64,000 nt of DNA. Origin: Nocardioides sp. CFH 31398. Its GTDB lineage: Bacteria; Actinomycetota; Actinomycetes; Propionibacteriales; Nocardioidaceae. Below the pieces are notes generated by a model. It did no database searches and was not told where the DNA came from. It worked only from the letters and a program-made list of their open reading frames with translations. A program made the translations under genes and the position numbers. Positions within the stretch are counted from its first letter, which is position 1. Each line of letters starts with the position of its first letter. The stretch spans positions 1-64,000 of the forward strand of contig NZ_JAKUHT010000026.1 in NCBI RefSeq assembly GCF_022436705.1, written 5' to 3'. Shown here one piece after another: positions 58,052 through 63,064 of this stretch.

Positions 58052-58906
58052 GTGCCCGCACCCGACCCCGCCCCCGCGCCGGAGGGCGTCGGCCGCATCG
58101 ACCCCGTGGACCGCGCGCACCTGACCGGGCGGAGCCGCCCGACACCGCCGATCGCGCGGTACTCCGCGTCACCGGGGCTGGCGGACCTCGTCGAGCGCTA
58201 CTGGGTGCCCGTCTGGTCGCTGACCTCGCCGCAGACCCAGACCACGCTGCAGCACCCCGTCTGCCTGCTCGTCACGACGCCGACGTACGCACGCTTCTAC
58301 GGCGTGGCCCGCGGCGCCTCGAGCGTGACGCTGGAGGGCGACGGGTGGGCGGTCGGTGTGCTGCTCCGGCCCGCCGCGGGCGGGCTGCTGGCCGGCGGCT
58401 CCGTGGCCCCGCTGGTCGACGGGGAGACCACCGTCGACGCGCTCACGACCGTCGACGGCCCCCTCCTCGTCGATCGGGTACGGCGGGCCATGGCCGACGA
58501 CCCGTACGCCGAGGCGTCCCACCGCGCGGCGATCGCGGCGTACGAGGAGACCCTGGGTGGCCTGCTGCCCGTCGACGAGGAGGGGGCCGCGGTGAACCGC
58601 GTGGTCGACCTCGTGGCCGGCCTGCCGGTCGACGCCCGGGTCGCGGACCTCGCCGCGGCCTCGGGGTTCTCCGAGCGCACCCTGCAGCGGCTGGTGACCC
58701 GGCGGGTGGGCATCACGCCGAAGTGGCTGCTGCAGCGGCGACGGCTGCACGACGCGGTGGAGCGCCTCAAGGCGGGGGAGACGTCGCTGGCGGCGATGGC
58801 GGCCGACCTCGGCTACACCGACCAGGCGCACTTCACCCGTGACTTCCGCACCGTCACCGGCCTCACGCCGGGCCGCTACCTCGCCGACCAGCCGGGAGCC
58901 TCGTGA
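58052..58906 (+). CDS. AraC-family transcriptional regulator
   Basis: A 284-aa regulator. The N-terminal about 150 residues resemble the DUF6597-type sensor domain (YSASPGLADLVERYW). Two helix-turn-helix units lie in the C-terminal 100 residues: VADLAAASGFSERTLQRLV and LGYTDQAHFTRDFR. The GTG at 58052 fits the -10 box; a longer frame upstream overlaps the divergent promoter. Its stop overlaps the next start (GTGA). Confidence 0.85.
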   Translation: MPAPDPAPAPEGVGRIDPVDRAHLTGRSRPTPPIARYSASPGLADLVERYWVPVWSLTSPQTQTTLQHPVCLLVTTPTYARFYGVARGASSVTLEGDGWAVGVLLRPAAGGLLAGGSVAPLVDGETTVDALTTVDGPLLVDRVRRAMADDPYAEASHRAAIAAYEETLGGLLPVDEEGAAVNRVVDLVAGLPVDARVADLAAASGFSERTLQRLVTRRVGITPKWLLQRRRLHDAVERLKAGETSLAAMAADLGYTDQAHFTRDFRTVTGLTPGRYLADQPGAS

Positions 58907-59835
58907 TCGACGTGCCCGAGGGCCTCGCGGGGCAGGCGCGGCTGGGCGAGGACTGGGCCGCGTGGCTCGACCGGTTGCCGGCCCTCACCGCGACGCTGCT
59001 CGCCGAGTGGTCGCTGCGCCCCGACGGGGCGTCGATGCACGGCTACTGCTCGCTGGTGGTGCCGGTCAGCAGCCCCGACGGCCCCGCCGCGCTCAAGGTG
59101 ACCTTCGACGGCGACGACGAGTCCGCGCTCGAGCACCTCGCTCTGCGGCGTTGGGACGGCGCCGGCGCCGTCCGGCTGCGGCGGGCCGACCCCCGGCGGC
59201 GGGCACTGCTGCTGGAGCGACTCGTGCCCCAGGACCTCGGCGACGCCTGGGACGTCGAGGCGTGCGAGGTCGTCGCCGGGCTGTACGGCGCCATCCACGT
59301 CCCGGCGCTGCCCCAGCTGACGACGCTCGCGTCGGTGGTCGAGAAGGACGACGCGCGCCTCGCCGACCTGCCTCGCGACGCACCGCTGCCGCGGCGGCTG
59401 GTGGAGCAGGCGCGCTCCCTCGCGGCGGACCTCCTCGCCCCCGACGACTCCCGGCCGGTGCTGCTGCACGGGGACCTGCACTACGGCAACGTGCTGTCCG
59501 GCCGCTCGGACGACGAGCCGTGGCTGGTCATCGACCCGAAGCCGATGGCGGGCGACCGCCACTACGAGCCGGCGCCGATGCTGTGGAACCGGATGGACGA
59601 GCTCGTCGGATCGTCCTTCGACTCCGTGCGCGACGGGCTCCGCCGTCGCTTCCACACCCTGGTCGACGTCGCCGGGCTCGACGAGCACCGCGCCCGGGAC
59701 TGGGTGGTCGTCCGGATGGTCCACAACGCGCTGTGGACCATCGACGACGCGCGCCGGCAGCACCGCGGGCTCGAGCGCGGTGAGCGCGACTGGATCACCC
59801 GCTGCATCACCGTCGCCAAGGCCGTCCAGGACTGA
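58903..59835 (+). CDS. Aminoglycoside/hydroxyurea-type phosphotransferase
   Basis: A 310-aa kinase of the APH(6)/streptomycin 6-kinase-like family. The catalytic loop is LLHGDLHYGNVL and the metal motif WLVIDPKPMAGD, followed by YEPAPMLWNR, which is characteristic of this group. It is translationally coupled to the AraC gene. Drug phosphorylation is plausible, but many relatives have unknown substrates. The first repeat of the 32-bp array begins 4 bp after its stop. Confidence 0.85.
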   Translation: MIDVPEGLAGQARLGEDWAAWLDRLPALTATLLAEWSLRPDGASMHGYCSLVVPVSSPDGPAALKVTFDGDDESALEHLALRRWDGAGAVRLRRADPRRRALLLERLVPQDLGDAWDVEACEVVAGLYGAIHVPALPQLTTLASVVEKDDARLADLPRDAPLPRRLVEQARSLAADLLAPDDSRPVLLHGDLHYGNVLSGRSDDEPWLVIDPKPMAGDRHYEPAPMLWNRMDELVGSSFDSVRDGLRRRFHTLVDVAGLDEHRARDWVVVRMVHNALWTIDDARRQHRGLERGERDWITRCITVAKAVQD

Positions 59836-59838
59836 CGC

Positions 59839-60043
59839 GAGTCGGCCCGAACGGTCGCGTCAGGGACGCCGAGTCGGCCCGAACGCACGCTTCCAGGACG
59901 CCGAGTCGGCCCGAATTGTCGGCTCAGGGACGCCGAGTCGGCCCGAGTTGTCGCGTCGGGGACGCCGAGTCGGCTCGAGTTGTCGCGTCGGGGACGCCGA
60001 GTCGGCCCGAACGGTCGTGTCGGGGACGCCGAGTCGGCGCGAT
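59839..60043 (+). repeat. 32-bp-period tandem array, seven units (left)
   Basis: Seven cores GAGTCGGCCCGAA start at 59839, 59871, 59903, 59935, 59967, 59999 and 60031, exactly 32 bp apart. The last three bases vary and unit 7 is degraded. From unit 2 on, each core is preceded by GACGCC, so the centre GCCGAGTCGGC is an 11-bp dyad. The 13 bp after each core vary between units. A broken copy is at 60085. 32 is not a multiple of 3, so the array is not coding. Confidence 0.95.
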
Positions 60044-60199
60044 CTCCCACCGCGGGCGCGTCGGGCTCCCGCCGCAGGGGCGTCGAGTCGGTGAAACCTC
60101 CGCTTCGGGCCCGCCGACCCGACACGCGCCTCAGCCCGAGGTCGTGGGTCGCCGATGCACAACGGGTTCGAGCGCCAGCGGTCAGGCCGACGGCGTGCG
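60044..60199. other. Spacer between the two opposed arrays
   Basis: 156 bp of GC-rich DNA with no supported gene, RNA or site beyond one degenerate core (60085-60097). Confidence 0.6.
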
Positions 60200-60308
60200 T
60201 TCGGGCCGACTCGGCGTATGGGGGGCGTGCGTTCGGGCCGACTCGGCGTATGGGGGACGTGCGTTCGGGCCGACTCGGCGTGCTGGAGGCGTGCGTTCGG
60301 GCCGACTC
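60200..60308 (-). repeat. 32-bp-period tandem array, four units (right, inverted)
   Basis: Four cores TTCGGGCCGACTC (reverse complement of the left core) start at 60200, 60232, 60264 and 60296, again exactly 32 bp apart. The array ends 4 bp before the stop codon of the minus-strand amidase gene. Read along that gene, the stop is followed by CGC and the core, just as after the phosphotransferase stop. Confidence 0.95.
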
Positions 60309-60311
60309 GCG

Positions 60312-63064
<2,753 letters not shown>

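Follow-up and report, generated by a model that had tools for sequence, protein, structure and literature searches.

The window analysed here, a stretch of 64,000 nucleotides from Nocardioides sp. CFH 31398 (contig NZ_JAKUHT010000026.1, positions 1 to 64,000), contains two opposed arrays of short repeats between the converging ends of two genes. In what follows, G000 denotes the genome of the window (4.42 Mb) and G223 its closest array-bearing relative. The features of the locus are:

58903 to 59835, + strand: kinase-like gene, Pfam APH_6_hur (PF04655), running into the left array
59839 to 60045, + strand: left array, seven cores GAGTCGGCCCGAACG at 32-bp spacing, the seventh degenerate
60046 to 60197, no strand: spacer between the opposed arrays, with a degenerate core GAGTCGG inside
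60198 to 60308, − strand: right array, four cores at 32-bp spacing, the first core 3 nt past the TAG
60312 to 61679, − strand: amidase gene, Pfam Amidase (PF01425), running into the right array

The preliminary description of this locus, seven left and four inverted right units at an exact 32-bp spacing, is confirmed by the sequence and by a repeat search. The left-array cores start at 59839, 59871, 59903, 59935, 59967, 59999 and 60031 on the + strand and the right-array cores at 60308, 60276, 60244 and 60212 on the − strand, with every gap 32 bp. The arrays do indeed begin right behind both convergent stops with a common CGC-GAGTCGGCCCGAACG join: the upstream ORF ends in TGA, then CGC, then GAGTCGGCCCGAACG, and the opposing ORF in TAG, then CGC, then the identical 15 bases, so that 3 nt separate stop and core on each side. 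The first unit of each array lacks the full 11-bp dyad, because there CGC instead of CGCC precedes GAG. The degenerate GAGTCGG in the spacer (60085-60091) is off the 32-bp register, and the innermost opposed cores are 177 bp apart, centre to centre. With up to 2 mismatches, CCGAGTCGGCCCGA has 12 sites in the window, 11 of them within the arrays, against a shuffle expectation of 5.7. The seven genes around the locus (AlkZ-like, MDMPI_N, AraC-type HTH, APH_6_hur, Amidase, Aminotran_3 and Asn_synthase) include no cas gene. An Rfam search of window positions 59500-60700 returned no family match up to E = 1, and a distant-mode search of a plasmid collection with the arrays returned none.

The core recurs elsewhere in the genome, and many other genes there end in arrays. 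Exact matches to the 15-mer CCGAGTCGGCCCGAA number 76 + 66 = 142 in G000, and the reversed-pattern control has none. At least 31 loci carry arrays (30 that were fetched, plus the window locus). Together they yielded 286 units in 51 arrays; L055, L070 and one L056 array duplicate others. The arrays have the layout [core-linker]n core. Gaps between units are overwhelmingly 32 bp (226 gaps, compared with four of 31, four of 33 and one of 30), and the spacing between same-strand neighbours is 32 bp in 195 of 204 cases in G000 and 157 of 160 in G223. The unit columns CGCC GAGTCGGCCCGAAC are almost invariant, the chief departures among 146 distinct G000 units being a C at position 11 (19 units) and a T at position 7 (15 units), and the dyad GCCGAGTCGGC occurs in units. 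The 13-bp linker, by comparison, is similar inside one array and differs between arrays. No base pair stands out in a search for RNA covariation inside the units.

Placement at gene ends, the most conspicuous property of the window arrays, is borne out at many other stops; as far as position is concerned, we did not find the absence from other gene ends that the preliminary description had named as evidence against it. In G000 32/48 arrays, and in G223 37/49, begin between −3 and 12 nt of a stop on their own strand (together 69/97; L055 and L070 are left out of these counts), as against 1.6% of 1740 and 1.8% of 1620 random positions in the same G000 and G223 loci. One array in G000 and none in G223 adjoins a stop solely in the wrong orientation. 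A further 15/48 and 12/49 arrays have no recognised stop, part of which we put down to the gene caller, a home-made codon model. Most G000 and G223 arrays begin 1-7 nt past the gene, frequently with the join TGA-CGCC-GAG or a form one base shorter, and at L049/L070 the gene enters the first unit, its stop lying 25 nt past the core start. The link to stops is weaker in sets from other species, which were chosen rather than random: a called stop is found at −3 to 12 nt for 28/76 arrays (counted by hand from a list) and 32/102 outer edges.

The arrays are retained in place between related species. Nine pairs of G000 and G223 loci have 4-8 genes in common; the window locus shares seven with L212, where the best matches to the kinase-like and amidase genes are 87% and 93% identical. 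Every pair has one side or more where G000 and G223 both carry an array. This holds for both sides in five pairs; in the other four (L047/L213, L064/L209, L065/L210 and L072/L205) just one of the species has an array on one of the sides. Identity on the 14 sides with arrays in both species amounts to 0.92 for cores and 0.57 for linkers, compared with 0.93 and 0.47 across all G000-G223 array pairs of these loci. Thus position, core and period stay, and the linkers turn over to near the level of unrelated arrays, with exceptions on the − sides of L066/L211 (0.97), L062/L207 (0.77) and L067/L223 (0.77). Unit numbers differ between the two species and units are homogenised locally.

An initial 1-mismatch search found arrays in 2 of 58 genomes, G000 included, and suggested that they were nearly private to it, a view overturned by wider searches. 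A C-type core at up to 3 mismatches is found in 11 of 215 genomes of the genus, with G223 by far the richest after G000, and the G-type core GAGTCGGCGCGAA in 19 of 391 genomes of the order, belonging to 3 of 40 genera. When one genome per species was scanned for exact matches, 53 stretches emerged, every one from Nocardioides or uncultured Nocardioidaceae. Opposed pairs of cores are far more widespread, occurring in 92/215 genomes at gaps of 11-41 bp (2 for the reversed control) and in 70/215 at gaps of 42-72 bp (1 for the control); G000 itself is counted in the C-type, G-type and opposed-pair figures. Since the loci of the C-type, G-type and one-genome-per-species scans were fetched with an exact 32-bp spacing required, their spacing is not evidence of periodicity.

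The amidase was tried as an ortholog probe and set aside: its best match outside the genome was 44% identical over most of the protein. With no clear amidase orthologs to follow, we turned to era (MMR_HSR1 plus KH_2), whose 3' end carries an array in G000. We read 50 Nocardioides era loci, made up of the best 30 matches (G000 and G223 among them) and 20 mostly from genomes with opposed pairs. Six, judged by eye, have arrays of other cores directly past the stop, with a 32-bp period in L294, L304, L305 and L303 and a 22-bp period in L299 and L336, and in G223 (L292) the opposed array alone is present. The remaining 42 have no clear array in the 110 nt read, L298, L311 and L340 being doubtful. 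L336 is the era locus of G124, where a 22-bp GAGTTGGGCCCC array stands behind the TAA in a genome also rich in GAGTCGGCSC opposed pairs. G124 (L381-L400) and G228 (L341-L360) each house several array families of dissimilar sequence, and periods of 22 and 32 bp coexist in one genome.

Some opposed pairs have features of their own. The left and right arms in G086 carry different tails, both of them recurrent in that genome, whereas other species have complementary arms. The long loops of opposed pairs in G085 and G061 contain inverted TTCTCCACAG / TTATCCACAG motifs, which we take to resemble the DnaA box, and CGCTTCGC runs are found in opposed-pair loops of G001 and G061.

Array periods were surveyed independently of any motif, over 400 kb from each of the genomes G228, G120 and G124, using 11-mer seeds and distances of 12-80 bp. 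Among 40 intergenic tandem arrays, 11 have periods of 20-23 bp, 20 of 31-33 bp and one of 43 bp, which amount to two, three and four turns of the helix respectively; the other eight have periods of 12, 12, 15, 15, 17, 18, 48 and 63 bp. The 32/40 within these bands compare with a uniform share of 9/69 (p ~1e-21) or with 9/34 (~2e-12), values that overstate independence, the left and right arrays of one locus having been counted separately, and that use bands (20-23, 31-33 and 42-43 bp) set once the 22- and 32-bp periods were known. Coding arrays in the survey have, with one exception, periods that are multiples of 3. In 400 kb of G475, from another genus of the family, the five intergenic arrays have periods of 15, 16, 18, 18 and 21 bp, one of them in the bands. 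Arrays in one genome may be mutual copies, which deprives such counts of independence, and tandem duplication by itself preserves any existing period. A second view comes from 51 loci fetched for opposed pairs at any gap of 11-72 bp, each counted once and unselected for tandem spacing: among 61 tandem spacings of up to 80 bp, 13 are 22 bp, 40 are 30-32 bp, three are 62 or 64 bp and five are others. The step from 22 to 32 bp is one helical turn.

The distances between opposed cores follow the same steps, clustering at ~31, 41, 52 and 62 bp. The 81 innermost opposed distances among the matches listed, from 16 genomes, fall at 29-35, 38-43, 51-55 and 60-63 bp with strays at 46 and 57, and their best period is 10.4. 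They were taken from forward rows, with rows containing another internal core dropped by eye and with G079 and G080 excluded as likely chance coding matches. For the 54 unique genome-distance pairs none of 5000 uniform draws was as good. With the G079 and G080 rows included (56 pairs) the best period is 10.1, equalled by 0/5000 uniform draws and 1/5000 with a per-genome block shift. Taking one opposed distance per genome, mean R is 0.63, between the 95% and 99.9% levels of the null (0.44 and 0.65). Among single genomes, G000 has a p of 0.05 with all 17 distances and of 0.002 when the 13 that do not exceed 140 bp are taken; in G223 none of 1000 draws matched the 19 distances, and the 12 unique distances have a p of 0.074. 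Loosening the cores to 1 mismatch (52 distances) keeps the clusters and adds distances of 17, 25, 48, 75, 79 and 80 bp.

The base composition of the units is phased as well. In 30 arrays (19 motif-free arrays of period exactly 22 or 32 bp, nine hand-picked ones and two pooled sets) the median relative power of A/T at 10.7-11 bp is 1.94 and 12/30 have p < 0.1, compared with 0.67 and 10.8% for 369 array-free windows behind genes and with 0.50 for 27 coding arrays. Taking one median p for each of 16 families assigned by hand gives z = 4.73, a test that is not fully independent, the heads being related across families. Singly, G000 and G223 are borderline, with p 0.06 and 0.03. The variable linker columns alone show no A/T phase (p 0.74 and 0.56), and the phase therefore sits in the conserved part of the unit. 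The idea that the 32-bp spacing is in phase with the DNA helix thus stands, and extends to other periods and to opposed spacings, which also go in whole-turn steps. Taken together, the survey periods, the tandem spacings, the opposed distances and the A/T phase imply that the array acts at the level of DNA, with its sites along a single helix face.

For 24 of the 32 survey arrays with helical periods, including one of 20 bp, the start lies between −28 and 25 nt relative to the stop codon of a gene that enters the array, a range read off afterwards from arrays whose edges are fuzzy. Merged into 25 loci, these 32 arrays lie in gaps of type +|− in nine cases, −|− in eight, +|+ in five and −|+ in two, with one open. 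Convergent gaps thus account for 36% of array loci, compared with 15% of intergenic gaps of at least 40 nt (80/524). Convergent gaps are favoured, yet other contexts are common, and the array is therefore a gene-end element rather than strictly an element of convergent genes.

We propose that these are phased arrays of double-stranded DNA which, bound by protein, mark the ends of transcription units by blocking polymerase, anchoring supercoils or both, and we give this reading a probability of about one half. Each unit would be one oriented binding site, consisting of a CCGAnnYGG-like head, often inside the dyad GCCGAGTCGGC, and a species-specific tail. Sites every two or three helical turns would align the bound subunits on one face of the helix, where they could oligomerise or wrap the DNA. 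The array would begin where translation ends and point with its gene, and two arrays between convergent genes would face each other in helical phase. Once bound, an array might slow or stop RNA polymerase as a polar roadblock, and might also, or instead, anchor the supercoils gathering at the end of the transcription unit. The position, orientation and geometry of the arrays, their recurrence in the genus and the retention of the core amid linker turnover are observed directly; we infer both the dedicated array protein and its roadblock or anchor effect. The putative polar roadblock is modelled on the stoperators of mycobacteriophages, which PMC9283540 describes as repeated asymmetric sites in short gaps between genes that point along the direction of transcription and bind a repressor that halts elongation. 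Stoperators are 13-bp sites for a phage repressor scattered over a phage genome, whereas the Nocardioides arrays are chromosomal, consist of phased units and have no known repressor. Unlike cores within one genome, as in G228 and G124, mean that several proteins or one tolerant protein would be needed.

The strongest competing explanation, which we place second and regard as rather unlikely, is that DNA gyrase, or some other protein that wraps DNA, binds the arrays strongly and removes positive supercoils at gene ends, reading phased bendability and so leaving the sequence free to vary. Such a role has been proposed for BIME-2, and the comparison rests on passages of PMC6379681 and of the preprint PMC12393610. 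The former gives the gyrase motif of E. coli as a pair of arms of 10.75-bp G/C periodicity about a symmetric centre, with gyrase sites enriched downstream of transcribed operons and present in BIME-2; gene-end position, symmetry and, for the arrays as a group, ~10.7-bp phasing are points of likeness. The phasing of A/T at 10.7-11 bp inside units of unlike sequence, the symmetry of opposed arrays and the location at gene ends all agree with such a reader. The Nocardioides arrays differ in their conserved oriented cores and fixed unit length, and strict gene-wise orientation with a well-kept core would not be expected of a symmetric, degenerate reader. The pattern is also missing in the other genus of the family that we surveyed (G475), though gyrase is general in bacteria. 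We favour a sequence-specific protein over gyrase alone because the orientation is fixed and the core kept; wrapping is favoured because A/T is phased and because several unlike cores coexist in one genome.

The arrays also resemble REP/BIME elements, and we consider it unlikely that they are selfish extragenic repeats of this kind, which a transposase would have dispersed and which the host would tolerate behind its genes without making use of them. REPs, according to PMC3733652, are extragenic, multicopy and species-specific, lie at 3' ends, often convergent, and form opposed pairs and tandem groups. That paper places them no more than 20 bp from the 3' end of convergent ORFs, so a location at gene ends is by itself no novelty. 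The 3' intergenic location is shared by the Nocardioides arrays, whose copy number and tails are species-specific, and the one-sided arrays confined to one species in 4/9 matched locus pairs would suit a selfish element. As for a palindromic hairpin unit, the picture is mixed: the dyad exists, but excess RNA structure is lacking in G000 and present in opposed pairs of other species. The Nocardioides units differ in making up direct, oriented arrays with a whole-turn period (22 or 32 bp), which begin at the stop codon, and in having a short interrupted dyad; the conserved GTAG or CGTC tag is absent from the 286 G000 units, both by eye and by column. Selfish spread leaves the helical steps of direct and opposed spacings unexplained, and it sits poorly with the retention of arrays on 14 matched sides where the linkers have mostly diverged. 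REP/BIME are the closest known elements, yet different.

A quite improbable alternative places the function in RNA, with tandem or paired hairpins terminating transcription or protecting mRNA 3' ends. It draws on the innermost opposed pairs of other Nocardioides, whose arms are often complementary and which fold with a mean z of −7.28 (47/48 below −2), and on AAA in 15/101 outer flanks of other species, a short U run for the opposite transcript. AAA is otherwise rare in the 20 nt before outer cores (1/46 in G000, 0/48 in G223 and 4/92 in another set). In the window the arrays fold no better than shuffles (z +0.87 and +0.79), and G000 arrays have a mean z of −0.08, with 5/48 below −2; the corresponding values in G223 are −1.16 and 15/49. 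No terminator-like site was found at the window locus, and G000 arrays lack the stable hairpin followed by a U-tract of an intrinsic terminator. We agree, as far as tested, that this is not a standard terminator, CRISPR or coding repeat. The suggested source of long complementary RNA from converging transcripts is unsupported in G000, where left and right linkers differ as well, and is further disfavoured by core variants that are uncompensated across the arms (L060, L066 and L071). Stem variants such as GAGTCGT likewise lack compensation. An E. coli intrinsic terminator set a few bp behind a gene was almost fully repressed (PMC4824070), and most of our arrays start at 1-7 nt. By (C−G)/(C+G), a rough proxy for rut sites, arrays are slightly C-rich on average (mean 0.10 in G000 and 0.05 in G223, negative in 15/48 and 19/49). 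Hairpins may have a role in other Nocardioides species with complementary opposed arms. Strong hairpins occur in those species but U-tracts are rare, and hairpins give no account of the ~10.4-bp steps, which fit B-DNA.

Neutral satellite DNA or an assembly artefact is very improbable, since local homogenisation and the differing unit numbers of G000 and G223 would fit it, whereas the position, orientation and spacing statistics and the recurrence in many genomes would not.

With CRISPR the arrays share conserved repeats at fixed-length intervals; they differ in that linkers are alike within an array, rather than unrelated spacers, and that arrays stand at many gene ends. They may nevertheless be miscalled as CRISPR or as satellites. 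A portion of PMC5526307 lists ten putative CRISPR repeats with no adjacent cas genes in N. dokdonensis, and our guess is that these are such arrays. Our search of the open-access literature, with most subscription journals outside its scope, found no description of such arrays in Nocardioides. The genus is not mentioned in the main text of the RepRanger paper (PMC12306157), and the main text of PMC3733652 contains no words beginning actinobacteria, Nocardioides, mycobacteri or streptomyc.

If protein-bound arrays do mark transcription-unit ends, one genus would hold dozens of natural boundary elements per genome, posing sharply the question of how GC-rich bacteria that lack U-tract terminators deal with the ends of genes and with converging transcription. 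The constant geometry and changing sequence would then form a rare natural series on what a DNA-oligomerising or wrapping protein needs. More tentatively, the arrays could represent a new gene-end architecture of oriented, phased protein arrays, in which a 2-, 3- or 4-turn geometry is conserved while sequence changes between species and within a genome, giving a chromatin-like nucleoprotein that would stop polymerase and hold supercoils.

Some G000 loci are themselves duplicated. L049 (3001-4564) and L070 (3011-4670) match in opposite orientation, with equal flanking gene lengths and near-identical arrays, and form an inverted duplication of several kb with a weakly coding-scored gene between the arrays; one of these arrays has 8 units in L049 and 11 in L070. 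The pairs L048/L055 and L054/L056 have identical arrays, one or both lying at a contig end, where arrays or longer repeats may break the assembly.
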